From Asterochloris sp. CNOR1 (taxonomy: Eukaryota > Chlorophyta > Trebouxiophyceae > Trebouxiales > Trebouxiaceae), in assembly GCA_963969365.1 (NCBI GenBank), contig OZ017763.1, positions 744,001 through 808,000 on the forward strand: a stretch of 64,000 nucleotides of DNA. The letters run 5' to 3'. This document shows, in pieces, positions 1 through 64,000 of this stretch. A program made the translations under genes and the position numbers. Below the pieces are notes generated by a model. It did no database searches and was not told the DNA's origin. It was given only the letters and a program-made list of their open reading frames with translations. How positions within the stretch are numbered: position 1 is the first letter of the stretch; every line of letters begins with the position of its first letter.

Positions 1-101
1 TGGGAAATTACAGACCTGGGAGCGAATCACAACACAGAGTCCAGGGTCCCGTCAATGGTCTGCAGATGCACACATCTCTCTTGGTCTGGCCTCTGGTGCC
101 T

Positions 102-146
102 GCAGGGCACTTGGCATGCTGCGTAAGTGGCATGGATGAACCTCTC
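102..146 (+). repeat. Degenerate upstream copy of acceptor plus exon start (Rieske gene)
   Basis: The stretch around 102-146 resembles the true acceptor and exon start at 191-236. Both read C-TGCAG or C-CGCAG, then a short spacer, then gcatgctgcgtaagtggc versus ccatgctgcgcaagtggc, then tgGATG. The upstream copy has diverged and is not needed for the reading frame. Spacing to the real edge is about 90 bp. Confidence 0.7.
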
Positions 147-197
147 ATGACATTATCCCTGGTATCACCTTAGCCAGTGCCCCCCCTGGTCCCGCAG

Positions 198-1512
198 GGG
201 AGTTGCCATGCTGCGCAAGTGGCTGGATGGGCCTGGTGGCGGCGGCCCCACCTACTACGGCCCAGGCAGGCCAGGGGCAGGGCAGATGAGGGATGCACTC
301 GGTCATCTGGACAGGCGCCTCATGCTGGACAGGACGGACCATACTCAGAACTGTTCTGCCTGCCGCCAGGTGAGCACCACACTGCTCAGCGACTTGGGGA
401 GGCACTTGATGCTGGACAAGCGCTTGAACACGCAGGACTATCAGCTGCCGCCAGGTGGGCGCTGTTGTGGCTTGGTTGTCTGCAGCAAGTGTAGTGGACA
501 TGCAGCGTTGCACAGCTTGGCAACTGGTGGTCAGTGCAGGCCAGTCTTGATCTTCGCCACTTGGCATGCGACTGATGCTGCACAGGCGGGCCCATACCCA
601 GAGTACGGTGCAGCCTGCCGTCAGGTGGGCGCTGTCTTGGGTTGGTAGTTTGGGGCAGGTGCAGCAGCTGCACAGCTCGAAGGCCTCTTCATATTGCCAG
701 ACCACTCACCCTGTGAGTCGCCAGGTAGGTAGGAAGGCAAGCAATCATTACGGACGTGTTGCTCTGCCAGGCATAGTGTGATGGGATAAGGCCCTGCGCT
801 TTCAATCAGGGTTGCACAAGGCAAGTGGTTGCTTGTTCATGTTCTCAGCTGGGCTGCTGATCAGCACAACAACAGCTACACAGCATTGTTGTCAGATAAC
901 TAGGTCCTCGATACAGGCAATTCAGGGAAGTCTCATGTTCAGAGCTGTGCAGATTGCTGCCAGGGGACCAATGCTCCCGCAGACCTGCTTTGTGGACTGC
1001 CTCTCCCACCTTCAGCTCTCTGGAATCACCTGTGCCCTGGCAGGTGATCAGCAGGAAGGTCAGGTTGCTCCCAGAGAGTCAGGTTGCGCAGCACAGGCTC
1101 CATCAAGTGCTGTCCTGCCGACCAACCTCACCTCTGTTTCTGAGGTAGTCTGTGACTCCAGCAAGTACGAGCCATTCTAGGTCAGCTCCAACATGCTCCA
1201 CCATCCCCCATCTGCTATTGCGAGCTCAATGATCCCAGGATTCCAGCATGTAGTCTGTCCCCTGCAGACTTGCAATCCTCTGCGCTGCAGGCTGAGAGGA
1301 CGCTTCAGACCCTGAAGAGCCTTGGGGAGGCCACCTGTCTGGCAGCATTGCTGGGGACCTTTGCCACCCTCGGGCAGGGTAAAGGACTCTTGGACCCAGC
1401 TCCGTTGGCGCTGCTGGCCCTGGCTGTGGGAGCAGAGCTGGCTGCCCAGAAGTGCGTTGTGCTCAAGCAGCAGTTTGAGTTCACCGACTGGCACCACCAT
1501 GAGCAGAACTGA
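198..1512 (+). CDS. Rieske-type oxygenase of the PAO/TIC55/PTC52 family, C-terminal end (5' partial)
   Basis: Two exons are visible, 198-369 and 1291-1512, joined in phase 0; the rest of the gene lies left of the window. The first exon carries a LRKWLDGPGGGGP segment, then MLDRTDHTQNCSACRQ, which contains the CxxC motif placed near the C-terminus in pheophorbide a oxygenase, TIC55 and PTC52. The second exon has two hydrophobic stretches (around LAALLGTFATLG and LALLALAVGAELAA) and ends FEFTDWHHHEQN-stop, like the FVDYVHAD ending of this family. Family members are chloroplast envelope or thylakoid Rieske/mononuclear-iron monooxygenases acting in chlorophyll breakdown or related steps; the CxxC is a known thioredoxin target in the family. 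The Rieske and iron sites themselves are outside the window, so the exact subfamily (PAO versus PTC52 or TIC55) is not decided. Exon edges are copied into the flanking introns (separate entries). Confidence 0.85.
375..632 (+). repeat. Two downstream copies of the Rieske exon 3' end with donor
   Basis: The true exon end is ...tgcctgccgccag then gtgagc at 370. Similar blocks end at 454 (agctgccgccag then gtgggc) and at 624 (agcctgccgtcag then gtgggc), 85 and 170 bp apart. Upstream of each, the tgatgctggac or tgatgctgcac word and a following ca-rich block also align with the exon. The copies lie inside the intron and break the frame, so they look like decayed tandem duplicates that keep a usable donor. 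Confidence 0.75.
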
Positions 1513-8586: not shown

Positions 8587-9609
8587 CTGCAGACGCCAGG
8601 CATAGCAGACACATTAGTGTGTGCAGACCTGTCAGAGGGCAGGAGCTGGGCTGCTTCACTGATGAGCATACAACAGGCCTGCAGAGGGACATGGCAGCAG
8701 TCAGAGTGCATGAGAGGCAAGCTGCATGTTCAGGGGTCACAAACCAGGCTGTGGTTTGGTAAGCAGTCCGTGGCCAGTTCCACCCGTTACTCCTGCAAGA
8801 AGAGATGCAATCTGCCAGCACAGCTTGCTCCACGCTTTGCTGGCCTGCTGCATTGGCCACTGCTGCATGACAGCCCGAAACATCCTCGTGGGAAGGTCAG
8901 GTGCGCGGGCGGGGAGAGGGTTTCACGTGCATGCATGGCATTCTTTGCATTGGGTTGCTTCAGCTGGCAGACGTGTCACTAAGGTGTTCTGCAGGGGATC
9001 ATGCAAGCCAATCAACAGGCACAAAGGCTCATCGACATGCCATGCGTGCAGCAAGTTCAGCTGCCACGGGTGGGCTGCTTCACCGCTGGCTGTTGCATGT
9101 AAGCAGCATGCAGGAGCATCTAGGTGGTGTCTAGACGCTGGACCAGCGTTTGATAGCGTTAAGCTGCACAGGCGCCAGGCTGCACGCAACAGGTGGAGAC
9201 CCTGCCTGCTCCCAAGATGGCTGGCACTTCGCGTTGGCTAGCCAGCAAAGATGCCAAGAAGGTCCTGGGCCCAGACACTGTCACCCTGGCAGCGCCAGGC
9301 ACCAGAAGCGCTGCAAAAAGGTGCGTGCTGGTTGAGGGACATGCCTCCAGAGGCCCTTCTGCCTCCTTGCAACACAAAGGTCTGGGACCAGCATGGAAAG
9401 CCAAACATGCAGCAGAGGAGGCCCCAGCTTGGCCCTCCCAACCTTTGCACAAATATTGACTCTGAAAGTCAGCTGTGCTGCCCCTCGCAAGCCTGTCCTG
9501 CCAAGACAACGAGCCTCGCAAAAGCGCAAAGGAACATCAAAATCTCTCCCTTATATTGTCACAAGGGCATGTCACATCACATACAGAGACTGACACACCC
9601 AGCGCAAAC

Positions 9610-9873: not shown

Positions 9874-9892
9874 GTCAGGTGAGATGACTCAT

Positions 9893-10650: not shown

Positions 10651-13600
10651 CTTGTGCAGGCAGAATGGTCAGCCCGATGTCCAGGCCTCTGCTGCGGTTG
10701 TCCACCTCCTGCCGCAGCAGCTTAGTGCCCTCGATGGCCTCAGCTGTGGTGACGGCTGAGAAGTCGTCCTGGAACTCCACCTGCTTGCTGCGCGTGAGGA
10801 ACTGGGTGAATCTGCACCCGCACATGACGAAGGGGGTGAACGAAAAGGGTAGACGGGGAGGGCTGGGATATCAGGCCAACTTGATCATGTGGACTTTCAG
10901 TGTGGCACGAGATGTACATTATGCGCGGACCTGGGGAGCAGCCAGGCAGAAGGCTCTTGCTGCGTATGCATGGTCAGCTGTCAGGTCAGGGGCCTTGCAC
11001 AGGTGCAACATTGTATGTGGTCTAGCAGGCAGGCACAGGCTCACTTGGCCATGTGCGTATGCTGCACATCTGCACAGCACACATTCTCTGCACCGGGACG
11101 CTCTGCCCACCTGTTGAAGAGGTTGAAGGACAGCAACAGGATATACGGGACGATGGCCACTGGCAGCCAGGTTTGGAAGTCGAGGCCAATGACGGGCTGC
11201 TCCATCATCAGCTCCCCAAACTCCTCATAGAACACCTGCACTTTGGTTGGTAGGACTCAGGTGCAGTCTTCTGCTGACGGTCAGGGTATCCAATCCACAC
11301 AGGGAGGAATGCATGTGATTGCCGAGTTGTGGTCTGGAGTGTTTAAGGCTGCATTTGCTGATCAAGGTGTCTTGAGGGCTACTTTGAGCAAGCAGGCACT
11401 ACTAGCAAATCTTTGTCAAGATACTCTGCAGCTTGTCAGCTGTAGCATCATGACAGACTCGGCCAGCAGCATGGGCTGCAGCCCTGAGCTGCTTGCTGTC
11501 CTTCATGCATGGCAGTGCACAGCTGGGTGACAGCACAAGACGCAATGTGCATCGTAGGCAGGCAGATGCAGGAGCAGCTGTGGCATGCTCACCGTGTTGG
11601 TGACGTCAGTTGCTCTGTGGTCTGGTGAGGGCGGCAGGGCAATGGCTGCCATGAAGTTGAAGGCCAAGGGGGCGGCAAAGCGGCACATCAGCAGCGCATT
11701 GGCCAGCAGCGAATATGGCGCAGTGTGCCTATAAGTGCCGGCAGCAAGGGATCATGTCAGCCAGGGTCTGTAGTAAGCAGTGTGCAGTGTGTGCGCAAGG
11801 TGGAGTAGCAGTCATGCCAGCGATGCAGCGGAGAGCTGCAGGTAGGGCGCCAGCTTGCGCATAGGCGTGTTCAGCATCAGCAATGATCTGACCTCTGGGA
11901 AACAAGCCCACCAGATGACAGCAGAACTGCACCCATGCACCAGGTGCTGACATGCGCTGCAGTCCCAGCTTGCAAATGGACACATCCACTCAGACTCAAA
12001 CAAAACAGTGACATGCAGCAGCAGCAGCACTGCACTGGGAACACCAACAGGTAGCAGCTCCAGCGCCCCCATTTGCCAACAGGTACAGTGTCACCAGAAC
12101 TCAGCAATGACATCCAGCAGCACCAACACTGCACCTGAGCGCTCGCTGCTTGCAATACAATGACAATTGAGTGCAGGTGTGCAGCAACCCAAAGACCACG
12201 CTCCTTCAAAGAACATGCCCAGAATCTACAGCAGCAGCACTGCACCTGGGCACCAGCAGATAGAAGCTCCAGCGCCCCAGCTTGTAGATGGCAAAGTAAG
12301 CGGCGCAGCAGGGGTAGATCAGGAACAGGAAGCACAGCATCTCGCAGGCGATGGGGTTGTGGGCCACGCGGCGCAGAGTCTGGCTGAAGACAGACATGTT
12401 GGGCAGGGCGGGAGTGATGGTGGCCTCTGCCACAATCACTGCCAGGGAGTAGAGGCCTAGCAGGACTGCCAGGGCCCTGCAGGCATGCAGCGGCACAGTC
12501 GACAGACCGCAGACAGAAAAGTTGGGTAGGGGCCGGGGGTTAATAGCTGCCAGACAGTGGAAGCCCAGCAGGGCTGCCATGACCCTGCGGGCATGCAACG
12601 GCACCAGTGACAGCTGCAGACACACGTGTTGGGCAGTGTGGCCTCTGCTGCAATGACCACCAGGACCCAGGGACCAACGTAACTGTCAGGGCTCTGCAGG
12701 CATGCAGCAGCCATGTTGTCAGAGTGCGCAATGACCTGCTGGCCGGGGCTAGGGATGGGCTGTAGGCTGTAAAGGAGATCAATGTTGATAGAGCAAAACA
12801 GATGCAGCAACAATGCACTGGGTGGGGGGCAGCATGGAGCAAGGTGCCTCCTGCAGAACTCAGCTGCTCTACAGGTGCAAGTTTGTGCCATCAGTCACAT
12901 GACATGGCTCTGCTGCAACTTAGCCGAGTGCCTCAGAGGCGCAAGCGTGCGCAGCGTAAGGTCACGAGCAGAGCTACAGAGATCTGCTGCTGCATCTGAG
13001 CAGGGCTGAGGTGGCGAGCATGGTGTTGAACCTGTTACATCGAGCTGATGCTCTCAGTTGAGCTGTGCTGCCACATGCCAGTGTCACTCACCTGAACACA
13101 GGGCCCCGCAGGCGGCAGAACCACCACCACTCGGCATGCGCCAACCAGACAGGCAGGGGTCCATGCGTGCTAGAGGCGAAGGGCTCCCCCGGGCGCTGCT
13201 GGTTCTTCACAACGTCCTCCAGGTGCAGATACGTGAGCACCAGTTCTTTGTACAGCTCCTGCTCCCGCTCCCAGCTCTCAATGCTCTGCAGTGCATGAAG
13301 GGGAAGTGAGAGGGACAGGGGTGGAGGTGGGGATGAGGAGGAGCTCCTGCCTGTCAAGGCTTGAGGACTTGCTGACCAAGCACTGCCCCCACCTTGTGCA
13401 AACTCCTTCTCAGTCGCCCCAGATCCAGGCGATCAAAGTAGTCCAGCTCCACATCATCATTCAGGGCCACCTGCTGGGGCTTGCACTCAGCAGCCTTGGC
13501 CTGCACCGACAGCAGGAGACGGATTGAGTGCAAGCACCACCCGCTGGACTTCTGCACCCTTGGCCGGTAGGTGGGCTGATGGCCTCAGTTCAAGCAATGG

Positions 13601-15874
13601 TGAGATGCGGTACAAGTATGAGCGGTTGCTGTTCGCTTGCACAGGGAAACAGGACGACTGAGTGACATCATGCATAGCGCATGCAGCAAGACCACGTCAG
13701 CAGCCTCAAAGCTGCATACGTATGCCAGCATCAGATCACTCACAATGTCCAGTTGAGCAAGCCAGGTTGCTGACTTGGGCTGCAGCATGCAACCCAGACC
13801 AGAGCCTTCCATGCATCTCAGTTACATACCTGTGCTGTAGCCAGAATTTGGTCCATGTACTTGGCCATGGGGTCACTCTTTCTGAACAACTGCTTGACCT
13901 GCTGCACAACAGCCATCTGCTCACTCATGACCCTGCAGGCAGGAGTGATACCAGACATGAAGCAAGCAAAGGCCGAGGCCGAGGAGCAGCACGCCTGCTG
14001 CACGGTGGCCATCTGCTCACTCATTGCCTGGAGGCAGCCAAGATTTGGCGCCGGGCAATGCTTTCGCATCCAGCCCAAGGCTACGACATGGCCGTCTCAG
14101 GTTTGCATACTCCAGGGCTGCACACTGGATGTCCTGCCAAGGGACCCCAGCAAAGTGCCACAGCATGGCCTGAAACTCTGGGGAGCCGCCTTTGCCACAA
14201 GAGCTGTTCCATCATTCACCAGCAGTCAATTTCCTCACATAAATGCGAAAGGACTAAGCTTGTGCTCACTTGTGCGCTGCCTGGGCATTGGCTGCTTGCA
14301 TGCCTGCCCGATGGAAAAGCTGCCGCTGGTAGCCCTTCGTGTCAGCCATGCGCCACAGCTGCTTGGGAATGGCCACCAGCCCAAAGCCCAGCAGCAGGAT
14401 ACCTGCAGCAAGGGGTGCAGTGGGTGGCCAAGGCAGCCAGCAGGGCGACATGGAGAGTGCCCAGTTGCAGGATACCCGGAACAATTGACGCTGTGGCCAT
14501 GGCCAACAGCCCAAAACTCAGCAGCAGGGGCAAGGGACGCCCTTTGGCTGCAACTGGCATGTCCAAGGCATTGCTGTTGTCCAGTGCAAGGCAAGCAGAT
14601 CAGGTCATATCAGGTCAGGACAGGTCAGGTCAGCCAAAGCATCCAGGCCTGTCAAGCTACAATGCGATGTTTGCAGGCATGCAGCGGGGCATGTGCACAC
14701 CTGCTATGAGCCCAAAGGCATTCGAGGCTGCTATGCAGAAGCCCACGACGTTAACAGGGTCCAGCTCGCCACTGATGAGCAGGATCAGGACGCCGCTGGC
14801 TCCTAAGCCCTGCGGAGGGCACAACATTGTCAGCAAAGGCAGGTCAACCCGATATGGCCACGACATTGCATGGCGACCAGCCAGGCAAGCAGTAGTTGCA
14901 TCATTGCTACAAGTTGTCTATGTGCATCAACGCAGCACGCATCCGGCAGGCAGAGCAGACCTGTCAGTCAATTGTGCGGTCACTGTCGGTGCCCATCACG
15001 TTGAATCTATGTTGGGAGGGGGCTGTGCAGGCAAGCCTTGTCTAGCAAACACATGACGCACCATGAGCACCAGGTAGAAGATGGCATTGTTGCGCAGGCT
15101 GGTGACGACCTTGTCCAGTCGATGAAAGTGCCCTGCAAGACACCATTGGAGATCTGAACTGTGATGAGCTAGCTAGCTATGGGAGGAGGTGGTGGGCGTG
15201 AGCTAAGCCTTATTTGCCCTGTCAGCAGCACCAAAATCCATAGTGAGCACAATACTGACCTGAGTCTGCATATTCCTGGTGGAAGGGGAGTACTGTGAAC
15301 TGCACAATGAAGCCATACCTGCAGCAGAAACAAGAGTTTTGATGCTGGCACAATTATGTGGACTTGGTAGCAACAGCATGTTTGCAGCAGAGCAATTGCT
15401 GCTTGCGCTGTCACCCTCACCAGTAGGCTCCCTGCCACCAGATGCTGAGCAGCCTTGGTGAGTGCCTCTGCAAAGGAAGGCATTTGTTGGGTCATGGCAC
15501 TCCCTTCATTGTTCTGCCTGAATGCCTCAAGTTGATGCTGAGCTGGCCAGGCGATATGCACAATGGCCATAGACAATGCCACCTCACCTGGAAGGCAGTT
15601 GCCACGTCTGTCGGCACCAGGACCAAGGTGCTGATCGCTGCAGCCCAGGCTAGTCCCACATCCAGCTTCACTGCCCAGCTTGTGGCCCGGGAGGGCATGT
15701 ATCTCAGGCCATACACGATGCTGGCCAGCAACAGTGGGATTGCCAGGGAGTAGAACAGCCTGCACAATACATAAAGGCCTGGCTGATAAGATGGCAGAGC
15801 ATGAAGCTGACCTGCCTGCTCTGGTGCAAATGTAGGATGCAAGCAGGCCCAAGATCTCACCACAGAGGTTGCAT
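10651..15874 (-). CDS. LIMR / LMBR1-like multi-pass membrane protein
   Basis: Fourteen minus-strand exons chain perfectly in phase: 15861-15874, 15588-15759, 15421-15467, 15260-15318, 15062-15132, 14701-14809, 14270-14402, 13830-13932, 13393-13500, 13092-13285, 12246-12476, 11593-11728, 11111-11235 and 10651-10811 (554 residues so far). The start MQPLWLFYSLAIPLL parallels MWVFYLISLPL of plant LIMR family proteins (At5g01460, At3g08930). Further family landmarks are LVPTDVATAF, IWWQGAYWYGF, NNAIFYLVLM, CIAASNAFGLIAG, LLLGFGLVAIPKQLW, the coiled segment with LRRSLHK and YLHLEDVVKN, LAVIVAEATI, YFAIYKLGRWSFYLL, LLMCRFAAPLAFNF and YILLLSFNLFNR. The animal relatives are lipocalin-receptor or lysosomal-transporter-like proteins; the plant and algal role is unknown. 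The first coding exon is only 14 nt. The C-terminal exons are unresolved. Confidence 0.93.
11928..12200 (-). repeat. Downstream copies of LIMR exon 12246-12476 donor end
   Basis: The exon end (plus strand tgcacctgggcaccagcag at 12241) recurs as tgcacctgagc at 12130, tgcactgggaacaccaac at 12031 and tgcacccatgcaccagg at 11928. Each has the agcagcagca run on one side. At the 12031 and 11928 copies a cagctccagcgcccccattt-like or cccagcttgcaaatgg-like block follows, matching the exon. Spacing is 111, 99 and 103 bp. The copies decay away from the exon. Confidence 0.75.
12477..12730 (-). repeat. Two upstream copies of LIMR exon 12246-12476 acceptor and start
   Basis: Read on the minus strand, the true edge GCATGCCTGCAG-GGCCCTGGCAG is preceded by GCATGCCCGCAG-GGTCATGGCAG (edge at 12584) and GCATGCCTGCAG-AGCCCTGACAG (edge at 12693). 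Spacing is 108 and 109 bp. The copies continue for most of the unit, with GTGGTCATTGCAGCAGAGG in the distal one matching GTGATTGTGGCAGAGG in the exon. Both would code for related peptides but are interrupted or out of register. Confidence 0.85.
13990..14035 (-). repeat. Upstream copy of the start of LIMR exon 13830-13932
   Basis: The minus strand here encodes MSEQMATVQQ. The true exon, whose acceptor edge is at 13932, begins VMSEQMAVVQQV. The copy follows an AG (edge near 14027), about 95 bp upstream, and is otherwise intronic. Confidence 0.75.
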
Positions 15875-26600: not shown

Positions 26601-29600
26601 CTGAGGGCACGCTGGACAAGAGCAGAACCCTCCACAGGAGCACCAGTTCTGCCGGCCTGCACGAAGGCAGGGGCAGAAGCGTCAGCCCTGCCAAGTCTGA
26701 CTGCACCAGGTGAGGATCACACATGCAGGACTGAGATCGTGTCAGCCTCTTGTGCTGCTGGCAACCCATCCAATTCGATTGATGGTGCACACCACCCAGC
26801 GCCTGCCCTGCTGCAGCCTCCCACCCCATCCCCTGGACCATGGAGGCGGCCAGCAGCCAGTCAGCAGCTGCACCAGCACTCCTGCCAGGTGCCCAGCCAC
26901 TGCTATGCTTGGGGCAGCTGCACCAGCACAGTTGCCTGCCCCAGCCTCGTTCCCCTGCTTGGCCTGCAGAGACCTGCAGCGGCTGAGGCAGGAGTGGCTG
27001 GACTTCTGCGGCAGCCACAGCCTGGGGCCAGGCACAGCTGGGGGACTGAGGCGGCAGGCATCCGAAACCTCTCTCAGGCTGCGGCCGCAGACGGGGCCGG
27101 CATCCCTGCAGGATGGCCTGCATCAGGGTGAAGGCCTGCACATTCGCAGTCCCCACCTGCAACTTGGCTGCAACTGCCTTGTCATCAGGGCTGGCATGCA
27201 GGCAACCACTCTGTCTGTGCAGTGCATGCATGCCTCCCTAGCGCAGTGGGTATATGCAAACAGAGCCTGCTGGCTGGTCCAGTCTGCTGCTTTTCTCAGG
27301 TTCAAATCAAGGTGCGAGCTGGATTCCATCGCCCACTGCTGTCAGCTGCAGTGATCCGCGGCAGCAGCCAGACCACGTGGCTGGCGCACTCTGGCACACG
27401 TCCCCTGGCGGCTGATGCTGTCCTGGCGGCCTCTGCAGGACCGTCCTCACCAGCCAGGAGCACTGGTGCCCACCCAGGCAGATGGCCTCCACCGCAACAA
27501 GGTGAGTCTGCAGCCTGCCCTTTGTAGTAGATCCTGGAAGACAAGGGCCTCCCCTCAGCCGCCAGGAGCGGCAGTGCTCATTCAGGCCATCACCGCCATG
27601 TAGTTGCATGGCGGCAGACACTCATCGGACAAGGCCATTGCCAGCTCCTAGGACTGGCGCACCTCCCAACTCACCTCCCATCTGTCCTTGTGCTGCAGCC
27701 CACAGCGCTTACACAGTGTCGCCTGGGAGCAGCCGGGTGCGCCCCAGCTCTCCAGGTCGCAGCAGGTCGGCGCAGAAGTCCTATGTTGCTTACCTGGACG
27801 GCGACACAAGCGGGCGGAGCATGGAAGACTGGCAAAGGACTGCATCATCCTTTGAGCTGCCGCTGGGTGAGCTGGCACTGCCATTTGTGCCAGTGTGCAG
27901 GCTGTCTTTCCCACTGGCATGGTTGGCTTGACAGCTTGGCCCTGTCAAGGCACATCTGGCCAGGTCTGCTGCGGCATCCGTGTGCCCTGGGCCTAAGTCA
28001 AGCTGTCTTCATGCCGTTGCCCTGTCGTGGCAGACCCTCTTGGCATGCTCTTTCTGCAAATTTGCCACAGCATGTGAAGCGGCTAGAAAGGCCTGCCCCT
28101 TATGCTGCAGCCTCCCAGACGGGCCGGTCGCTGACCCCTGAGGAGGTGAGGGTGGCGCAACAGCAGGCAAGGCTGCAGGCTCGACTGGATGAGCGCCACG
28201 TCTCCATGTCACCAGGTATGCTGCGTTGTGGCTCTATGTGAATATGCTTGTGTGAGGCAGGCCTGCCGTCCTTTTTGCCTGGGCGCTTCAATGTGATTCA
28301 TTCAGCTGCAGCCCAAACTTGGCTACTCTAGCTGCCTCATCAAATCATGCCGGGCACCCCATGCAGATACTTCATACCAGCCGTTGTTGGGCCCAAGGCC
28401 TGACTGATACAGGCTTGAACCTGTGCAGGGCCTCACGGTGCAAGCGTTTGATGCAGCCTGTCTGCACCCTCAAAGAGCTGCAATTGATGTGCAGAGAGCC
28501 AGCAGCGCTTGCACAGCGTGCTGCAGATGTGCACTCTGTCAGCACTGTGAGGCATTGCAAGCTTGGCTCACACAGCACAGCACTTATGCTATGTGCTTAC
28601 TTCAAAGCATGTAGAAGCTTGTGAAACAAAGAGTGTCACACACACTACTGTGTGTGCCTGCAGCAACTGCTTGTGCGCAGTGAGTGCATTCCTTTGGACA
28701 GAGCAGGGACCCTTTTCATGATCATGTCACAAGCTGCAGCAAAGCAGAAGGTACCAACAGGCGGTCATAGGCACTGAGTAATGCTCAATGCTGTGCAGAG
28801 GGCCAGGGCCGCCTGCAGGGCATGCTGCGGGATGTGCAGCACCTCAGGCTGGGAGGCAAGCCGTCCCCCACCCTCCGGCCAGCCTCAGCCCCACAGCCAG
28901 CGCACAGGAGCAGGAGTCGCTCCCCTGCAGCTTGGGCTGGGCTACCCAGCTGGTGGGATGCAGACTGGAGGCCCAAAGATCAAGCAGGTGGGGACCTGCG
29001 CCAAACCTTCTTGGCATGCCTGGCACCTCGTGCTGGAGGGACGGCAGTCAAAGGTGCGTAGGCAGGTGCGTGGTCCAACCTGAGGCATGAAAGTCTTTGT
29101 ATATTGGGTAAAGACAAGCGGCCAGGGCTTCCCCCTGCATCTTTGTTCGGAGCGGTGGAGGGCTGAGTGTCTGCCCCTGTGTGACCCGACAGGCGCGGCC
29201 AGGTACAGCTCAGTAGGATGCGAGCCTACAAAGCTCACCAAGATTCGATGAGCAATGCAATGCCTGCCTCCTGCAGGACACTCTTGCCTGCCAGGCAGCC
29301 ACAACCGTCAGCATGAGAATGGTTCAGGCCTGCATGGGCAGCGTCTTGGGTGCCTGCAAACCTGACTGAGTCTTATGGAGCAGGAGCATGCCTGTTCTCT
29401 GGAGGGCATTCCAGAAGCAGTCACAAGCATCATGCTGGGCTTGCTTCAGGCCTGCCTTGTCTGCAGCCTGACAGCCGGCAAAGTTTTGCAGTCTCGTCGA
29501 TCAAGCGCAAGCCTGCCTCTGCAGGCGTTCTGGAGGCAGTCCCAGCCAGCATGATGCACTTGCATCAGGCCTGCCTGTACAGGGAGCCCGCAAACTCACC

Positions 29601-37623: not shown

Positions 37624-40600
37624 TCACCACCATCCCTTGTGCGGGTCAATCTGCTTCTGCTGGGCTAGCCGCTCATGCTCTGTCCAATGAATTTCGGTCT
37701 GCAGGCTCACCACAAAAGCGTCAGGGGAGGAGCATACGCATGTCACACTGGGCTTGACAGACGTGGCAATGTCTCACCTGCTGCAGATGATACAGCGACC
37801 TCTCGTAAAATGCCCGCCCTGTCACAGGGATGGCTATTTCAAGGGTGGGCTGCAGGCATGACAGCGACCCAGTTAGACCTCATGAGTATTGATGACGTTT
37901 GGGACAGTGCTGCGCCTCATGGCTCAATGCTGTTCTGCACAACTCAAATCTCAAGGCACAGAGGTAGCTGCACAAGGCGTGTGCAGGGCTGCCTTCCAAG
38001 GCTTGCCTGAGGCATGCCATCTGCGGTGTCCCAGAGACACACTGACAATGAAGCTTTCTGAAGCTTGACACCACTCCTGACCTTGAGGAAAAAGTTGATG
38101 AAGCGCAGCTGGTTGGTGGACACCACAACCTTGCCTCGGTCACACATAGGCGTCACTGACAGTCCCTGCAATGCCTCTGTGTCCCCCTGCGGCAGCACAG
38201 CAGGTCACCTGCTGAGGCTTGAGTCTTGGGGGACAGCACACCTCCATTGGCAGCGTCGCAGCTGACATGCAGGGCTGCTCAGCTCCTGCTCAGACAGAAT
38301 GCTGGCTGCCTGCCAAAGTATTGGATGACTGCTCAAGCACCAAACCGGCTCCTTGCTGCAGCTTGTGCCGGCTGGTCTCACCAGCCACTGAACAGGGCGT
38401 AGACCCAGACATCTGACACCACCACTGCAGACAGACCCCAGGCAGCCGCCCTGCCTGCTAAAGGAACTTGCAGCAGATGAGCTTCCAGGTGGGTACTGTG
38501 CTGCAGGCAGGCACCGCATGGGTGCTGCTGATATGACACAGTCCTGAACATTGAACACTGAAGGCCGGCCCATAGATTGACAAAACAGTGCCAGGTGTGT
38601 GAAGGTTGCCGTTTACCCCAGCTTCTCACCTGCTCCAGGAACTCGCAGCAGATGAGCTCCCCCCAGTGAATGCTGTGCTGCAGCTGGCGGCAGGGGTTGC
38701 TCAGGTCAGCTGCGTGCAGCACCATCTGCAGAATCAGGTCGACATCGTCCCACTGGGCCAGCTCGGGCTGGACCGCCTGCTGCTTGGTGAAGGCCTCCAC
38801 CAGCTTGAAATGCTGAGTCATGTCTGTGGACAGCACCGCGTTGACGACCAGCCGCCGCACCTGCAAGTGGGGCAAGTGAGGTGGGGTTCCAGCCATGCAG
38901 CCATGGAGTCTGTGCCAAATGGCCGGTGCTGCTGTACCTGCACACAGAGGTTCACATCTGCACACAGGTACTGGCCAGCTTTGCTTGTAAGTGATCCTGT
39001 ACCTGCCTGGGAGAGGACATTATAGCACCAAGAAAGCATGCTTGTAACAAAATGGTGATTGCTGGACTGATTTGAGGTCAGCGATGGTGGTGAGGCCAGC
39101 AGTAAAGGATGCATGCAGCTGTGAAGATAATGTATGCCACATCCCACGACAAGCAGCGCCCATGACACCAAACTGTGGCTAAGAGCCCGCGTGGAACACC
39201 AGTCGGCCCCTGAGGTGCAGGCCGGCACTGTGCTTCCTCCAGCAGCCTGGCAGGCCCCCCTCCACATTGCCGCAAAGGCCTCCGCTGCACCACAGCCCTG
39301 ACGTGCATGTCTCTGTCCAAGTGCTGCCAACATAAGAGCTCTAAGGGGTTGAGGTCAGTCACCCCGCCAGGCTCGTCCTCAAGGTGCCAAGGCGCGCCCA
39401 GCAGCATCGAGCAAGTCACCAGGGCTTCCCCTATACAAACCTTGGCTGTGAGAGGCCCATGGATGTGTTGGTCTTCAGCATTTGGGCCTGCAGAAACCAA
39501 TGTGAGGCAAGCACTCCTAGCCGCGGCACAAGCCAGTAAGCCCTCACACCTGCACAAACTCCTGCCGCGAGAGCCCCTCGAAGATGTTGGTCTCCGGCAG
39601 CTGTGCCAAGCGGAACGCACAGCTGACATGGAAGTTTTCATTGACAGAGCGATCATTGTAGATGATTGCATTGGGGTGCCGCGTGTTGATCAGGAAGTCG
39701 TTGGTGAAGCCTGCGCCAGAGGTTCTAATCAGCTGGGGTGCAGGTACAGGAGCAGAGGCAGATGCGCTGGCAGAGCAAGTCCAACGTGCTCTGGAAGCAG
39801 CCAGGCTCTCAGGTCCTGTGCAGCTGATGTCAGGCCCCAGCGCTGCAGGCCAGGGCTGACGGTTGTTGGTCCAGGTCATGCGTTGCAGCTGCCACGATGA
39901 AGCCTGGAGCTAAGGGGCAGCCTGGCCCTCCAGGCTTGCGCAGCAGGTGCCAAGCCCAGACTGTTGCACACCACGGCAGGCAAGCAGCAGGTCGTGCACC
40001 GCAGCTGCCACAACTGGGCACCGCAGCCCAAGCGAAGTATGACTGGTCCACGTCGACAAGTCAGAGAAGCAGCTGAGGCAGGCCCCTGGAGTGCACTGCC
40101 TGCCTGGCTGTCTGGGCTCCTGCAGGCAGTGTCAAGCCTCAGCATTGCAAGACAGGACAGACGGCTGTTGGCTCACCTGGGTGTGCCAGGTCGTGCACCG
40201 CAGCTGCCACAATCAGGCTGAACACCTCCAGCTTCGAGAAGTTTGCAGCATTCCCCGCCCTCAGCATCAATACGGCGCCCTGCAGCACATTCCAGGCTCT
40301 GAGAAATCTCTACCAGTGATAGCAGAGTTTGCTACACCCAGTTGCAGCCGTGTCACGTGTTGCACATTCCCTGTGGATAGCAGCCATCGCAAACAATCTT
40401 GCAGATGCGGGCCTGCAATAAACAGACTTCTGAGCAGAGGCAGCCTCTGCTGCCCTGGCGGATGTGGGACCTGCAGGCTGAATGCACTGCTGCAGGCAAC
40501 CTCAGAGGCAGAGGCTCTCCTTTGCACTGTCAGCTGCAAGACGGCGCCCTTCAGCACCAGAGCATGCTTGCAGATCGAGCGGGAGCGCATGTCAACAGCA

Positions 40601-48900: not shown

Positions 48901-51900
48901 GGTGTGCTGCCATGCCCTGCCTGCCGATTTGGGAGGGCTGAATCCCTAGGGTTCTGGAGCAGCCGTCCCACAGGCCGCCGCTGCTGCTGCAGCTGTGCTA
49001 CAGGTGAGGCAGCCTTGATGGTAGCCTGGGCCCCCTGGCCCTGCTGCTGGCGCTGGGGTTGCTGTGCCTGCTGCCCCTTGCTGGGCGTCTGAACTGTGGC
49101 ACCCCATCCGCCTGCCACACCTGCAGTCAACACAGCCGTTGGTCAGCCAACTCGAAGAGGGTCCTCAGCACCTTCGCTACTAGGTGCTCTGATCAGGCCT
49201 GAAGCTGCACTTGCTAAGGCATGCCGATGTTGATGACAGCAGGCAGCCAGCTAACTAGCCCGTATATGGCAGGCATGTGTTTGCGTGCACTAGGCATGCT
49301 CCATGGGAGGCACCCAAAACAATCTCAGGTCGCTGCTCATAGCTGGTGCGTGACGGCAAGCATGTTCTGGGTAGTAGCGCGCGCCAGGGCAGTACTGCAA
49401 GCCAGAGTTATATCATTGGCTGCACCTTTAGAGATGCAAGCAGCAAGCAAGCCGCTCAATAATCTGCTTATCGAACTAGTACAAACAGTGGTACAACAAG
49501 GTGCAGCATGTCCTTGACCTTTTGGCTTCTGCACGCCTCCGTCCTGAACACCCAGGGCTGCCTGGCCAGCGCCCTGCGGGTGCTTAGTGTTCTGCCTACC
49601 ACGGCCCTGCAGGCAGCAAAAGAGGCGGTCCATCAGTGGAGGAGTGCTGAGTGTGAGCAGCCAGTTTGTGGTGAACTCCATACGCAATTAAAATCCACTG
49701 GGGAACAAGCAATAGCAGCTCTCAATGATGACAGTATTTCACATGCTGCTGTGTCATGCAGGATGTTCCATACTAGTCCTGGGGTTGCTGCAGTGCTATG
49801 CATGCCTGCTGCCTGCGTACGACAGCAATGCACCACATGCAGCCTGGCGGCAGGTCATGCTGCGCAGCTGTGGCATCACAGCCACCTGCCTCATCTGCAG
49901 GCTGCAGCAGAAGCCCTAAAGCTGCACCAGCAGGGTCAGCGACACTCCAGCAAGATGAAGGCCTCTTCATGACCAGCAGGACCAGCAGCCCAGCTTACTG
50001 TTTACCAGCAGGGTGAGGCCCGAGGCCACTCTCAGCCCTGCTGGTCCTGCGTCTCCTGCTGCTCACACCCTGCTGCAATTGCAGCAGTTGCGGCCTGCCA
50101 GCACAAAGTGACAGCAACAGCATGAGCATCTCACCATTGGGGGCGGCAGGCTGGGCTTGTGTCCAGCTGCCCTGCCAGAATCCTTATTGCCGCCGCGACC
50201 TGCCTGGAAGCCCCTGCCAGCTGCTGGTGGCGCTCCACGGCCTGCAGAAGCTGCCTGCTGGCCGACAGAAGGCCTCACGGCCCCTGCTGTGGCTGCTGGC
50301 GCTTGAATCTGCAGGTAATGACCCACAAAGGTGTTAGCCTGTGGAGCTGTGTGCTGTGAGCGACTGCAGGTCACACAAGGGCTTGCAGCTGCTGGTGTCC
50401 CACCGCACATGCAATCGCCTGCTGGCTGCCTGAAGACCTCACTGCCCCTGCTGTGGGCTACTTGCACAGAGCCCTACAGGCAGGGGCTGGTGAAGCTGTC
50501 ATCCAAGAAAATGCATGCTGTGAGTGACTGCTGGTGACAAAGGCTGATTCTCGCCTGTTTGGGTGTTTGGCAGCTTCTTGCCATCGTCAGGGTGTCAGGC
50601 AAACAAGTTACATCAGGCGGAATGGCACTGCGCTGCTTGCTGGTGTATTAAGCGTCTGATGCAGTCTGTCATCAGGCCACACTGGCCCGATTTGCAGAGC
50701 TCTGCAGGAGTGGTGCCCTCCAGGGGACTGGTGCTGACTTCATGCATGCCAGATGCAGATGTGCTCCTACCCAGCCACCCCAAATGAGATAACCACTGCC
50801 CAACGCAGCACAACTCTGCCGGCTCACACAGTATGCTCACCCTCTGGGGAGCAGGCTGCAGGGTGGGTGGCCACTTCCACCAATGCCTCCAATGGCAATC
50901 AAAACTTGAATCCCTGCCATATTCCAGATGCAGGCGTGCCCTGACATCGTCCCCCAGCAAGTCAACACTGCCTGCCTTAGCACAGGTTCGCTGCTTCATG
51001 CAAGCCTCACTCACCACTGAGGGAGGCAGGTTGCTACGCCCACGGCCGCTTCCGCTGACACTACCCATAGGGACTGCACGGCCACAGCCCCGGGCAACTG
51101 CTGGCTGCCCATTGGTCACAGGCTGCTGGCCCTGCTGCTGCGTGCGTGCAGGTGGCAGCCTGGACAGGCAAGGTCTCAAGTGTCACCTGATGAGTGAGGT
51201 CAGAGAGCAGGTCAGGACAGTCTGTAACTTGAATGGGCAGCGGCTGTACAAACTGTAATGCCTTAGGCATGGCAAGGGCAGCAGATATTGCCAATCTTGA
51301 CCCAACAACAAGTGCAGAGAGGCAGGCCTGCAAAGTGTTCGTTGCGCCCCGGCTGTGCAGGTGTGACCGAATTCAGTAAGCAGGCACACAGCACCCCAAG
51401 CATACCTGCTGCCATTCGCCACAGCAGGCCCTCCAATGGCGGGCCTCTCCTTGACACCCTCCACCACAGGCGCAACAGCCAGCCCATCTGCAGGCAAGGC
51501 AGGTGTGCGGAGCAAGCCACTGCAGTTTGCACAGAACGCGTACACAGCCTCACATGCACAGCGTATCAGTGCATGACGCAACAGACAAGCAGCGTGGGCT
51601 AGGAGCCCACAAGATGCCATTGGGAATGCTGAGCAGCCCCGGGCATAGAATGCATTGCAAAGCGCTGATCTCAGGCCAGCATAGGTAGCTTGTGGCAGCG
51701 CAGCTTAGACGCCAGCGCAAGCCAAACGCTCAGGCCTTGGTCAATCTTTAACAACCACCCAGAGCTCTGTACAAGAGCTCCTGACCTAGAGAAGTGCTGC
51801 AGGCTGGTAACTCCACATGGCAGATGATGCAGCTCACTCTGCAGCCGCTGGCGCTTGGCACCCCTGTTCCCATCCTCAGTGCTGTGCCTCTTAGCACCCT

Positions 51901-54900: not shown

Positions 54901-57900
54901 ACATGTAACAGCAGCAGAGGTGTAAGGGCCATTGTGGTGTGTTGTTGTTGCTGGTCTCAAGCACACCAACACTGCCAAAGCATAAGCTCAGCCCCTCCAA
55001 CCCCAATCCCTCATCAGCTGGCAAAACAACTGACAGTGACTTCAAGTGAGCCATTCGCAGAACTACTTGCATCCACATTCAAGCCAGTCCTGACTGCATG
55101 AGCTGGGCTTGGTCTGGGCAATCAGGACGGGTTGGGTTAGCTTGACTACCCATCAACATGCCCGTAGGTCCTACTGCCAGCCTATGAACCCATCACTGGC
55201 TACTGTGACACACTCAGAATTTCAGCTGCAAGCGGGCTCTGTCATTTTCTGGCAGCACAAGCGCACCCCATTCGACAGAAGAGTGCCCAGAATACCCATA
55301 CGCCTGCCCAGCAGGGTGATGCTACCACGGTTTCGTGGCCCAAGGCAGAGAATCTTTTCTGTGCAGGCACGCTCATCACACAAGCCCCCTGTGGGCAAGC
55401 CCGGGTCTCTCCCTGCCCAAGCCTCAAGACGGTCATCCACCCGGGTTTCCCATCTGCGCCCTGTCAGCAGTATAACGACCCAAGGTCACCCATGATGGGA
55501 GCAGAGCAGCCAGCGAGCCCCCAAGGCCCCAGGCAGCATGGCAGCCTCCGCCGGCACGAACATTACAACCACCGTCAACCCACCACTCACCTGGGCAGGT
55601 CCAGGATGTAGTTGCGCGGCACCTCGACTGCCCTCTGCGCCAGCACCCTGGCAGCACTGGTGGCAAGCTGCAGCAGCTTGGCATAGTGCTGCTGCTCTGT
55701 GGCATTGCGCTTCCGTTTTGGATCCACCTGCAGGCGCAGAGGGAAGCCAGAAGCTGTTTAGGCATCAGCACTTGTGCCTGTGCTACAGCTGCGCCTCTTG
55801 GTGTAGCAGGAAAGTGGGGCAGGGGCAAGCCGTAGATGACTGCATTCTGCTGCTTCAATAAGTTATGCTGGGGTCTGTATTGCAGTGCAACAGGACGCAA
55901 AGCAGAAGATGACATCGCTCTAATGAGGCCTAAGCTGTATGGAAGATTCCTGGCCTTGGACTGCTGAGCAATTGGCGCCCCACCTGCACAGCTGGGTCCA
56001 GCTATGACACGTAAGGAGGCCACAAACACCTGGTGTGACATGGACACCCCCCAAGGAGGTAGTGAGTCACACAGTAGGCTACCGGTCTGTACAAAGGTCA
56101 GCGACCAAGACGCCTTAGCCATCTGGAGCTGGGCACTGAGGCAGGTGGGCCTGAATCTTTTCAAAAAGATTTGCAGCAACCAAATGCATTCCAAGCCTAT
56201 GTGCTGATGCATGGCATGGACTTTCATGGTGCATCAGGGCAAACATGAAGGCACACCCACATGTTTGTGGAGGGAGCCCACTCACCCGCATCTGCTGAAG
56301 AGCCGTCGCTGCACTGAGCAGCACATACTGCTTCCCAGGGTTCTCGGCCATCGCCTTCCTGGCCCAGGTTGTCTTGCCACACCCTGCAGCACGGCCAGGC
56401 AGCTCCGGTCAGCACACAGCGATAGCAGGCCGACACTTACCTGCTCAAAGGCAATGGGTAGACTCAGGAATGCTGGGGTTGCTAGAGCCAAGGGCTGGTG
56501 CAGTGATTCAGAAAGCAAGTGGCAGACACTGCATCTGCACAGGCTAGTAGATGCACGGCCATGCACAGAGCCATGCAGTAGGTCACAAGCACATGAGTTT
56601 TGGGTAGGCTGCATGCATGACAGTGCGGAAAAGCATGCTAGTAGGCAAAACTTGCAGCAAGACAAGTCACGCCTGGCAGACTACAGCTGAGTGGCACTGA
56701 GTAATGAAGGAGCAGCGCACCTGGCAGGCCCACCAGTGTCAGGACCTCAAAGTCCAGGCAGTCTGGCAGGGGGTCTGGCAGGGTAATCTCACAGTGGCCC
56801 TGCCTGGCCGCCTCCTGCAGGGAGGATGCACAAAAATCAGGCAGCTGGCATCTGTGACGAGTCTGCAGTGCAGCTTGGCAGGGCATCTTTGTGCTGCAGC
56901 AGCCACAGCCAAGAGCAGGTCTGTGCCCCTTTCTTTTTGGATAAGATGCTTGGGCTCACCAGGTTGGCGAGATAACTTCGGCAGGCACAAAGCAAGGCAT
57001 GGCTTCTAAAACCGTCTCATGCAGGTCTTGTGGGCCTCCTGTCTTTGGGCAACATCTTCAAGTGCCCACATGTGAGGGCATATGTAGTAGGTAGGTCCAG
57101 GCCTGATGTGCAAGGCTGTCAGCCTCAGGCCCGAGAGCCCACATGCTCAACTGCCCAAGTCAACAGGCTAAATTGCCCTCTGCCTGACAAGCAAGACCCT
57201 CAAGCCTAAAGCATAGAGGTGCAACGGGTTCGATGTGCAGGACTGTCGAGCCTTGGCCTCACGCCCTCATGCATAGATGCTCAAGACAGCAGGCCGCAAC
57301 TGACATGCAAGACCCCCAAGCCTGGGGTATATGTGAGCTAAGACACAGCCCACAGAAGCATCATTGCAAGACAACCAGCCCATACCAATGCAGTGCCTCA
57401 CATACACCTGCCATGCAAGGCAGTGCCCCATATACACCTGCCAAGAGTGAAAGCTTGAAGTGTCCAAGCCGGTGTCTACTTTCGGCACGGTGTCAAAGGA
57501 GGCTGTGACAGCTGCATTCTTGGCAAGCGCGTGAGGGAAGATAGGCTGGTCCTTGGGAATGGTGAAGGCCTCCCCCAGCCAGGCACCATTGACAGCATAG
57601 GATACGCTGCCAGCATCCGTGTCGACATAGCAGGTGACAGTGTCCCCTGCAGCAGGATATTTGGGCTCTTGCAACTGAGCTTGCAACTGAGCCCTCCATG
57701 TTGCCGCAGCAGGTGACTGTATCATCTGCAGCAGGGACTTCGGCTTCTGCTCTGAGGCATACTTGGGCTTTAGCAGTCAACCTCCAGCAGGCGCTACACG
57801 CTTCCAGCCTGCGTGTCGACACAGGTTGGCTGCCGCAGAAACACTTGGGCTTTGCAGTTGGGATCTCCCAGGCACCTCCCAGGCACGTGAAGCACAAGCC

Positions 57901-61700: not shown

Positions 61701-64000
61701 TTGGTGAGCGTATGACTTCACATGCCCTGCAGATCTGCCAAGGCGTGGTAGTGACTCAGCTCAAGGAGTGGACCCGGCCAAGCCTGCCAAGAGGCCAGGC
61801 CAGCTATACCTGCCAGAGCCCTCAACAGTCACCAATGCCACACTTCTGCTGGCTCAGAAGGAGTGAGTGCTGTCATCCTACTTGCAAAGACCTGCAGGCT
61901 GGCTGCTGGGCGGCTGGCCTAGCCTGCCAGCTCAGCTGGGTCATTGTGTGCTGTGTTGCTCTCTGCAACTCAGTCAAAAAGCTTGCTGTGCCTGCTGTCC
62001 ACCTTGCAGGTTCACTTTACATCCATCAGTACACCCCTGCAAGGATCCCCTGCTTTAAAGTTCTGTGCGTTTCATGTCTCTGCCAGGCTGTCAGATCCTG
62101 GCATCCCTGCAGGAAGTCTCTGGGGCAGCGCCCCAAGCCTGTCAGTCCTCGCAAGGAAGATCGCTTTGGCAGAGATCTGGATGTCAGGGGCTACAGTCCA
62201 GTACGTGGCAGTGGGCCACAGGAGCAACAGGTAAGGTGCTGCACACCTCTGGAGCAGCTGTCCTCCCTCTGACCACAGATGATGATGCCAGTCTGCCTGA
62301 GTCCTTTTGGAGGCCTTTCAAGATATGCTGGCCGACAGCAAGTCACTCCTTTGCTGAAGGAAAGCAACAGCGGTGAGCCTTTCCCAAGTTTGAGATGGCA
62401 ACTTTCATCAAGCTGCCCGCCCTCCATCCTCACTGACACTTTTGCTCGACCTTTGGCCACCTCCAGTACACATCTGTCAGTCTCAGGTAGAACGGGCCCA
62501 TGTGGGTAGGTGGAGCTATGACGTGTCCAGCCCAGGCAGTCCGCAAGGGTCCGGTAAGCCACCCTTACCTGTCATGTGCCTGCCAAGCTGCAGGACCCAA
62601 GCCGCCGGCGCACCAGCAGCCGATGGGGGGCCGACACTCTTGCTGCTGTTGGGGACGAGGATATGGATGCTGGCAGGGACCGGCGCAGGTGAGGAGGCAT
62701 GCAGGCATCAGCCAAACTTTGAAGAAACCCAAGCTCCTGCTCTGACTTTGTTCAACTGCCCAACCTGCAGCGCCTTTTGGCCACCGCCTCTGTTGTCACC
62801 CCTGCCTTGTGTTTCCTGACTTACCGCCACATAGCATCACACCTCACATCTATCATATGTCCACCTCTCTGATTGGTGGATCAGCCCCCCTATGGTGGTG
62901 GCACATGGTTTGACCACAGGCAAGGCCTCAGGTGCTGCAATGCACCTGCTGATATGTACAGCCTCCTGCCATCTGCTGGCCCTTACACGTGCAAGCCCTA
63001 CAGGCACCGCGGGCGGCACCGGTCCAGACGGCACAGGCACAGCCCTGCAGGAGAGGAGGCCAGCCCTCTTCCTGCAGGGCGGGGTGCAGTGCCTCTGCCT
63101 CAGCAGCAGCAGGCCCAGCCACTGTTTCCATCCTATGTACCATCCACACAGCAGCCAGCTGCGCCTGCTCAGGTGAACACCTGCACCTCTCAGTCTCTGG
63201 CGTGCACCTGGCAGATCTGCAGCGCCATGCCACCCACCATCTGCAACAGTCCCTGTCCTCTGAACAGAGCGCACACCTGCCTGAACACTGCCTGTGGACA
63301 CCTGCCTGTAGAGTACAGAGCATGGGATCTTGCCTCCTCTGTCCCATGTGCAGGGGAAGTATGGATGGCATGCAGCAGCACCTGCAGCCGCACCTGTGGC
63401 CCCAGCGCCCAGGCAGATGCAGCCACAGGCTGCTACTTCACCTGGTGGGCCTGTGGCCATGGCAGTTGACAGCAGCTCAGAAGACGATGAGGATCTGCCC
63501 TCCCCCTCTAGGGGCCGGGCTGCTGATGTTCTGGCTAAATACCTGAAGCCAGACCCAGGTGCGCAGTCGGTTGCCTGTGTGATCTGCAGCAACCCTGGCT
63601 GAGTACTGGGAGCCAGACCAGGTGTGTTCTTTGCTGGACGGCAGGCCCAGGGCCTGCCTTGCTGATGTAGAGCTTTAAATGTGTCAATAAGATACGATGG
63701 TTCCTGTTTATGAGACAGCAGAGCAGGCCGTACATGGTCTGCATGGGTACCAGGAACCGGGAGCCAGGGACAGACACACCTGCCTCACCCTGTACCCAGG
63801 TACGCAGTCTGCTGCGCAGCCCAGCCGCGTGTGCAATAATCTTCCTCATGATGTCAGACAGTCTGCCCACCACAGCACATGTGCGACCTTCTGTGATCAC
63901 CTTGCTGGGCCTTGCAGGGGCTAGGGCTGCAGATGTTGCTGCAGCTGCTGCTGCGCAGGCGTCAGTGGGCTTGGCTGCGCAGCCAGTGGTCCCCTCACCA
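58749..64000 (+). CDS. Prion-like Tyr/Gly/Gln-rich, coiled-coil and RS-like protein (3' partial)
   Basis: Exons chain in phase: 58749-58935, 59205-60088, 60468-60629, 61264-61414, 61733-61862, 62113-62230, 62594-62688, 62962-63172, 63354-63558 and 63918 to beyond the window. A 63-nt exon at 61610-61672 may be included or skipped. The N-terminus (MSEAPPGTEEAAPG) leads into YYQAQGYGGYDPYGQYAA and YGYDAYGQYTGYP, a FUS-like prion-like region. An Ala/Pro/Thr-rich linker follows. Then come a coiled coil of KAQQAAAEAAA repeats and a charged helix with RQRRAEEERQRLAAEAQA. The last part has RQ-rich and RS-like stretches (KSLGQRPKPVSPRKEDR; DPSRRRTSSRWGADTL; HRGRHRSRRHRHSP) and an acidic SSSEDDEDLPSPSRGR. 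It is probably a nuclear RNA-associated or splicing-related protein (inference from composition). No known domain is recognised. Confidence 0.8.
60810..60955 (+). repeat. Two downstream copies of the end of exon 60468-60629
   Basis: The exon end aaggagctggagcagcggcg (60597) recurs as aaggatttggagcagcggct (60816) and aagagaattggagcagcgca (60908); the last continues ggaaggctcagtcagtgg, parallel to the exon's caaggcgcaggcggtgag. Spacing is 219 and 92 bp. Confidence 0.85.
63605..63810 (+). repeat. Downstream copies of the end of exon 63354-63558
   Basis: The exon end agccagacccaggtgcgcag (63549) recurs as agccagaccaggtgtg (63611) and in pieces as gagccagggacagac (63771) and tgtacccaggtacgcag (63791), all within the following intron. 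Confidence 0.7.

Follow-up and report, generated by a model that had tools for sequence, protein, structure and literature searches.

Results

Genes and gene models

The window, i.e., the whole 64-kb stretch of DNA analysed here, contains a first gene, a PAN-domain stretch, a LIMR (LMBR1) gene, a giant gene, a PDE stretch, a Q-rich gene and a SPRY/AAA (hnRNP-U-like) gene. Pfam confirmed the PAN, PDE and SPRY/AAA assignments and gave no name for either the in-window part of the gene previously called 'Rieske' or the 'bZIP' protein. LIMR was confirmed through its homologues, the closest of which are Trebouxia (61-63%) and Myrmecia (62%) proteins. In addition, a tandem repeat with a 33-bp period was observed at 59861-60054, inside predicted exon 59205-60088, where it codes for an Ala/Gln/Lys-rich stretch.

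The complete sample comprised 329,239 bases: the window and 265 kb from elsewhere in the same assembly (56.4 Mb, 21 contigs), taken as 24 ten-kilobase stretches (L009-L032, on 17 other contigs) and eight 3-kb loci (L001-L008). Gene models were predicted ab initio by a self-trained hidden Markov gene finder (HMM). Neighbouring genes were merged in these models, so exons were used as the unit of analysis. The gene finder yielded the consensus (C)AG/GTRAG for donors and CTGCAG/G for acceptors. Exons had a median length of 145 bp (score at least 5) and were shorter than introns (mean of 278 bp for predicted introns, median of 371 bp for the 340 tested). A mean of 9 introns per gene is given for the published Asterochloris glomerata genome (PMC6652019). 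Predicted 3′ splice sites were strikingly uniform. T, G and C occupied positions -5 to -3 in 95%, 95% and 98%, respectively, of all predicted introns in the 329 kb, values that may have been sharpened by the gene finder, which was seeded with a weaker acceptor motif; TGCAG formed most predicted acceptors, often within the palindrome CTGCAG.

Copies of exon edges in the window

Introns of the window contain diverged copies of the edges of neighbouring exons, here called fossils (Table 1). At a score of at least 95, they were found in the first gene, LIMR, the giant gene, the PDE stretch, the Q-rich gene and the SPRY/AAA gene, and also at 8586 and 60629. The original prediction had named six affected genes and reported none in the PAN-like and bZIP genes; likewise, the PAN-domain stretch and the exons as far as 18994 (its bZIP gene) were free of matches, the assignment to genes leaning on the names that it used.

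LIMR exon 12246-12476 has fossils of both of its edges. Its first start fossil lies approximately 108 bp upstream in the intron, outside the alignments of homologous proteins, and the gene finder miscalled an exon (12626-12766) on the second one. Similarity falls with distance at this exon start (67/83, then 84/124). The same trend had been claimed for the clearest arrays, but the nearest copy was more similar than the farthest at only 1 of 10 multi-copy junctions, which is a weak test as alignment lengths differ.

Several other copies are worth noting. For the exon end of the first gene, the gene finder picked a donor at 455 and not the one within 275-375. In the giant-gene array, 56 of 74 columns are identical between 29942-30015 and 29650-29721. 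The end of PDE exon 38630-38860 falls within a contiguous alignment to solved PDEs; for the perfect PDE copy at 39988-40013 (score 130, distance 199), the end of the parent exon was confirmed at HDLAHP. The copy in the SPRY/AAA gene had an own-intron score of 121 at 79 bp.

Table 1. Exon-edge copies and related features of the window (alignments are given as identical/aligned positions)
Feature	Position	Strand	Evidence
LIMR (LMBR1) exon, functional, with fossils of both edges alongside	12246..12476	-	HMM exon; Trebouxia P0001 12478-12248, Myrmecia P0003 12484-12233
First fossil, start of LIMR exon 12246-12476, acceptor CCCGCAG	12542..12622	-	67/83 to 12434-12515
Second fossil, start of LIMR exon 12246-12476, CTGCAG acceptor	12613..12723	-	84/124 columns
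Fossil, end of LIMR exon 12246-12476, GT donor, downstream intron	12019..12069	-	46/52 to 12229-12278; score 183
Fossil, start of LIMR exon 13830-13932	13994..14037	-	37/45 to 13898-13942; exon homology 13928-13833
Fossil, start of LIMR exon 14270-14402; match starts 4 bp into exon	14490..14528	-	34/41 to 14358-14398
Exon-start copy (TGCAG and following sequence), first gene, upstream of 183-234 copy	90..143	+	44/54 columns
Exon end, first gene, candidate donor CCGCCAG/GTGAGC (one of three similar)	275..375	+	401-460 (47/65), 529-630 (72/103)
Downstream copy of first-gene exon end 275-375, CAG/GTGGGC	529..630	+	72/103 columns
Giant gene, array of acceptor/exon-start copies (candidate acceptors)	29181..30015	+	pairs at 128, 250, 511, 656 bp
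Fossil, end of PDE exon 38630-38860	38454..38529	-	59/78 to 38629-38701
26-bp perfect copy, 10 bp inside end of PDE exon 40177-40279	39988..40013	-	26/26 to 40187-40212
Acceptor and start copy of predicted exon 50135-50241	50377..50543	-	score 258, identity 0.68 to 50208-50380, 169 bp
Start copy of predicted exon 57438-57646 (SPRY/AAA, hnRNP-U-like)	57695..57756	-	score 132, identity 0.73 to 57616-57679
Start copy of predicted exon 8418-8586	8645..8697	-	score 121, identity 0.73 to 8550-8608

Local direct repeats

When the window was compared with itself by BLAST (cutoff of 50 bits), 8 direct repeats were detected within 3 kb, along with neither distant direct nor inverted matches. The 24 other stretches contained 65 direct repeats at distances of 25-800 bp versus 2 local inverted ones (raw score of at least 45); 14 additional direct repeats, confined to two stretches, and 2 inverted repeats were farther apart. 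Most arrays escaped Tandem Repeats Finder, which reported 11 rows for the window. The blastn program discards near-diagonal matches. As its self-comparison showed no repeats with a spacing below 60 bp, a purpose-built aligner was used for short spacings. With this aligner, 210 direct pairs at 15-900 bp were found in the 329 kb (score at least 120). The inverted control (900-bp windows) gave 2 pairs, and a distant band of the same width gave 9 direct ones. The spacing histogram of direct pairs peaked at 80-140 bp; among the 144 pairs scoring at least 140, spacing was 60-140 bp in 63, shorter in 21 and longer in 60.

Some high-identity arrays run head to tail, with units of 50 bp (L017), 68 bp (L027) and 64 bp (L015). 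An exon-start copy at L016 5940-6085 is 93% identical, and only 54 bp of its 92-bp spacing are repeated, implying a spacer or a later insertion between the copies. A local duplication at L026 6184-6995 has a 404-bp spacing, far above the usual unit size, and 81% identity.

Matches between exon edges and their own introns

For each predicted junction, up to 70 bp of exon and 25 bp of intron were compared with the adjacent intron, using a threshold score of 100. The own adjacent intron was matched by 79 of 819 predicted junctions (20/144 in the window), compared to 4/4,095 comparisons with other length-matched introns and 0/819 with the reversed own intron. Exon sequence alone gave 51 own-intron matches versus 1/4,095 elsewhere. 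Exon pieces located 75-145 bp inside the edge matched in 1 of 444 cases; for the same exons, the edges did so in 41 of 444. Thus, the central claim of the original prediction, that exon edges are copied with their splice sites into neighbouring introns, extends well beyond the window: a decayed copy of the own edge is present in the neighbouring intron at about 1 in 10 junctions, and the pattern is real and genome-wide. The divergence of the copies also agrees with the earlier statement that they are not an assembly error.

The nearest copies lay at a median distance of 128 bp, and 39 of the 79 were at 80-145 bp, the spacing previously described as frequent. The junction was crossed by at least 8 bp on both sides in 57 of the 79 alignments. 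Matches affected 28 of 58 predicted gene units, and 8 exons, including LIMR exon 12246-12476, matched at both edges. Introns with fossils were longer (median 520 versus 347 bp; 67 of 340 introns); this was not counted as evidence because long introns give more room for matches.

Position of arrays relative to exon edges

We identified 105 arrays (score at least 120, identity at least 0.64), which together span 30.7 kb. Intron-side copies of exon edges accounted for 46 of them, compared to a mean of 16.6 and a maximum of 27 in 200 global relocations, and to a mean of 18.6 and a maximum of 31 in 300 local relocations within 1.5 kb. Edge arrays on the wrong side of the junction were absent (0/105), whereas about 5.6 were expected by relocation. 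The remaining arrays were wholly non-coding (33 observed versus 47.8 expected), exon-interior (9 versus 9.6), exon-exon (5 versus 6.9) or of other types (12 versus 18.5). The exon sequence copied in the 46 edge arrays was 18-96 bp long. One junction that was later refuted, PDE 39842, is included in both these 46 arrays and the 79 own-intron matches. An apparent acceptor bias (32 acceptor versus 14 donor junctions in arrays) was not reproduced in the targeted test (45/412 versus 34/407) and was discarded.

The association of repeats with junctions depended on which exons were counted. With all predicted exons, junction-spanning pairs showed no significant enrichment (68 versus a null mean of 57.8 and a maximum of 72). 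With exons filtered by coding score, intron-side edges were in excess at all nine settings (coding-score thresholds of 3, 6 and 10, each with three alignment settings), ranging from 55 (20.5 expected) to 22 (4.9 expected); wrong-side edges numbered 0 in eight settings and 1 versus 5.0 expected in one. The filter was chosen after the unfiltered result had been seen, with a planting control and homology checks serving as safeguards. In the planting control, 726 duplications were placed in non-coding DNA; 714 were detected, and only 3 of these were classed as edges. The gene models are not drawn toward repeats.

Comparison with homologous proteins

Seventeen fossil-bearing junctions in six proteins were compared with homologues. 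Fourteen were confirmed: four in LIMR (12245, 12476, 13932 and 14402), three in RuvBL2, three in PDE (38629, 39549 and 40176), two in beta-COP, and one each in DnaK and Rpn11. One was refuted, and two belong to neither class (beta-COP 2536 in a loose alignment and DnaK 3259 at the query end). Apart from LIMR and PDE, the proteins had been selected for being recognizable, and the comparison covered 4 of the 20 edge-bearing gene units outside the window. The refuted junction was PDE 39842, for which homologues place the border approximately 130 bp (about 43 residues) further in, so that the predicted acceptor is probably intronic. One wrong junction among 15 decided does not alter the contrasts. 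The corresponding segment, 39711-39842 on the minus strand, reads as an open frame, has a CTGCAG acceptor at its upstream end and is either intron or a lineage-specific extension of PDE exon 39550-39842.

In LIMR, each stretch aligned by Trebouxia P0001 has a matching predicted exon. Predicted exons with no counterpart in homologues are 12626-12766, which is a fossil, 9953-9977 and 10076-10101. A search for relic insertions in 21 LIMR homologues revealed one clear case. In P0013 from Micractinium tetrahymenae, an insertion of 47 residues after residue 86 closely repeats the following segment (local score 196); this may reflect either the recent tandem duplication of an exon or the way in which the gene was annotated.

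Decay of the copies

Identity was 0.77-0.79 in the exon-derived parts of the copies and 0.73-0.75 in the intron-derived parts, a difference that would result from constraint on one exon copy and drift of both intron copies. Within the exon-derived part, 34 of 39 gap runs were not a multiple of three, and the copies display neither an open frame nor coding constraint. Differences were unevenly distributed over codon positions 1-3 (0.226, 0.179 and 0.257; p 0.007), and codons with a single difference comprised 184 nonsynonymous, 86 synonymous and 2 stop changes. The slight surplus of third-position differences is attributed here to synonymous changes in the functional exon; had both copies been coding, it should have been much larger. 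The displaced copies decay as non-coding DNA.

Relic splice sites appeared to be well preserved in gapped alignments: 13 of 14 donor copies retained GT and 22 of 32 acceptor copies retained AG, and motif identity was 0.87 versus 0.77-0.79 for the exon part (Fisher p 0.0009 for acceptors and 0.065 for donors), in alignments that had been selected with the motif inside. When fossils were found from the exon part only and extended without gaps, identity was 0.80 in the flank used for finding them and 0.60 (116/194) in the splice-site core, a figure depressed by small shifts near the junction; the dinucleotide was kept in 19 of 48. Selective retention of relic sites, which was not observed when alignments were found without the motif, was therefore dropped as a candidate, and neither keeping nor purging of these sites is claimed.

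Junction preference and survivorship

Exon edges may be over-represented simply because their copies are recognizable for longer. In a pairwise simulation, slower decay alone favoured edges 1.16-1.55 fold. In forward simulations, duplications fell uniformly; units that spanned a junction were kept and those internal to an exon were rejected. When 70-bp exon flanks were compared with intron windows, the ratio of matches was 0.82-1.02 in six settings. The observed ratio was 2.98 (95% CI 1.81-4.77, resampling loci), with matches in 70 of 680 edge windows versus 63 of 1841 intron windows. Simulated junction preferences of 3, 8 and 15 fold gave ratios of 1.56, 2.45 and 3.31. For intron sequence beside junctions, the frequency of repetition was 1.26 times that of intron interiors (CI 0.82-1.82); the same preferences predict 1.10, 1.49 and 2.10. 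When the intron-derived part alone was considered, 11 edge arrays versus 33 intronic ones were counted, a ratio of 0.33 compared to 0.18-0.19 under uniform duplication (about 6 expected).

Because the exon-flank ratio exceeds the uniform prediction, junction-spanning duplications seem to be over-produced or over-retained, with little excess in the junction-side intron sequence. Very roughly, a junction preference of about 5-10 fold would fit both ratios, an estimate that depends on the gene models and on simple mutation rates. The suggestion that junctions are special is thus upheld in part: the flank ratio favours it, but slower decay explains some of the excess and the junction-side intron gives only 1.26.

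Discussion

In this study, we report that the edges of exons, together with their splice sites, are copied into the adjoining introns. The copies are local, lie in direct orientation on the intron side and are restricted to exon edges. They very probably arose by recurrent short tandem duplication across exon-intron junctions, with the exon-proximal copy remaining in use and the displaced copy becoming an intronic fossil. Recurrent local duplication of this kind, with one functional copy, decaying others and longer introns, had been put forward in the original prediction, and it accords with the 46 edge arrays (versus 16.6 and 18.6 by relocation) and the lack of any on the wrong side. DNA segments, commonly of about 60-140 bp, would be duplicated head to tail again and again, each copy representing one past tandem duplication. 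A segment spanning a junction would yield two copies of the splice site. The copy joined to the exon body would stay in use, leaving the protein unchanged, and the displaced copy would join the intron, add one unit of length and decay as ordinary non-coding DNA; successive rounds could thereby build short arrays of exon-edge fossils. The spliceosome may choose the exon-proximal copy through exon definition, and staggered breaks repaired in an error-prone manner, or slippage, may have produced the duplications. Some observations fit this explanation less well: the refuted PDE junction 39842, the partly unrepeated spacing in L016, the 81 of 144 pairs spaced outside 60-140 bp, similarity that decreases with distance at 1 of 10 multi-copy junctions only, the intron-only count (11 edge arrays versus 33 intronic ones), the lack of significant enrichment with unfiltered exons, and the junction-side intron excess of 1.26, which is below the prediction for strong preference.

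Whether the junction itself attracts duplication is a separate question. We tentatively consider that exon-intron boundaries could be hot spots of short tandem duplication in this lineage, at which such events arise or become fixed several times more often per position than within introns. A rather doubtful, if serious, alternative is that duplication is even over exons and introns, and that edges are merely recognizable for longer since the functional copy does not drift. The near-equal repetition of junction-side and interior intron sequence (1.26, CI 0.82-1.82), the 1.16-1.55 fold effect of survivorship alone, the commonness of wholly non-coding arrays (33/105) and the smaller excess in the intron-only count all favour even duplication, whereas the simulated ratio of 0.82-1.02 in all six settings is well below the observed 2.98 (CI 1.81-4.77), with edge windows matching in 70/680 and intron windows in 63/1841.

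Other explanations appear much less probable. That the copies are retained because they serve as alternative exons or as decoy splice sites is improbable: the conservation of GT (13/14), AG (22/32) and the motif (0.87 versus 0.77-0.79) in gapped alignments would suggest it, but these alignments were preselected for containing the motif, fossils found without it had a core identity of 0.60 and kept the dinucleotide in 19/48, and both gap runs and codon pattern are those of non-coding DNA. It is very improbable that the introns were born by duplication of an exon segment (a Rogers-type model) and have held exon copies from birth. Such a model accounts for exon-like sequence within introns and builds on a described route of intron gain (PMC3443670, PMC4974935); however, 57/79 alignments carry an existing junction with at least 8 bp on either side, and only 3/79 have the relic junction 30 bp or less from the far end of the stretch tested. 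The pattern is growth of an existing intron. An artefact of gene prediction, low complexity or assembly is the most improbable of all. Ab initio models do merge neighbouring genes, at least one counted junction (PDE 39842) was mispredicted, and some of the five exon-exon arrays are in low-complexity proteins. Against this, only 3 of 714 planted duplications were classed as edges, the other-intron, inverted and distant controls were near zero, homologues confirm 14 of the 17 borders checked, and the divergence of the copies implies that they are not doubled reads.

The origin of intron sequence is hard to trace because introns decay. With tandem duplication across junctions, each duplication can be recognized against the exon, which acts as a frozen reference, and intron growth could thereby be read step by step. 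If boundaries are hot spots, such 'splice-junction stuttering' would be a main engine of intron growth and would provide a standing stock of duplicate splice sites for new exons or alternative splicing. The fossils also pose a testable question about splicing, namely how a second splice site beside the real one is tolerated, with exon definition as the obvious candidate. In addition, they are a warning for annotation: the gene finder called a LIMR fossil as an exon, and residues absent from homologues were added to the RuvBL2, Rpn11, DnaK and PDE models.

The elementary step is ordinary; its frequency and its tie to splice junctions are unusual. That introns can be gained by tandem genomic duplication is accepted, and the duplication of splice sites has been described in that context (PMC4974935, PMC3443670); the original statement that no established description exists was therefore too strong, although the passages concerned do not describe the present pattern. 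We found no description of exon-edge copies in introns in one open-licence literature collection, which omits most subscription papers, and they go unmentioned in the intron passages of PMC3446292 (Coccomyxa genome) and PMC12712428 (Trebouxia A48).

Several known systems are related to these fossils. In tandem exon duplication, including mutually exclusive exons, copies of exon sequence lie beside the original. Here, in contrast, the copy is limited to the edge (18-96 bp of exon across the 46 arrays) and decays. In the potato RdRp gene, most splice signals were reused from a duplicated intron-exon piece (PMC4974935), and an 83-bp tandem duplication within an intron of that gene is also mentioned (PMC4974935, PMC3443670). 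As far as these accounts go, the potato gene and the present fossils both involve local tandem copying of gene sequence by which splice sites are carried along or created; however, a new intron was made in potato, whereas here an existing intron grows, the coding sequence stays intact and the extra site is debris. Human UBC contains introns inside tandem repeats, with dual-specific splice sites (PMC10809524). It likewise has tandem copies within a gene that each bear splice-site sequence, but its copies are, as described there, coding monomers whose copied sites are used, unlike the intronic, decaying copies reported here. Fill-in of staggered breaks by Pol alpha-primase/CST makes small tandem duplications at induced breaks in mouse cells (PMC8355091). 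In the account given there, these are short, direct and free of mobile elements, as the present copies seem to be, and they are a possible source of the duplicated units, which here are known from old products alone. Finally, introner elements are also repeated sequences within introns, and are characterized as common to several genes (PMC9860276), whereas the fossils match their own exon (79/819 versus 4/4,095 for other introns).
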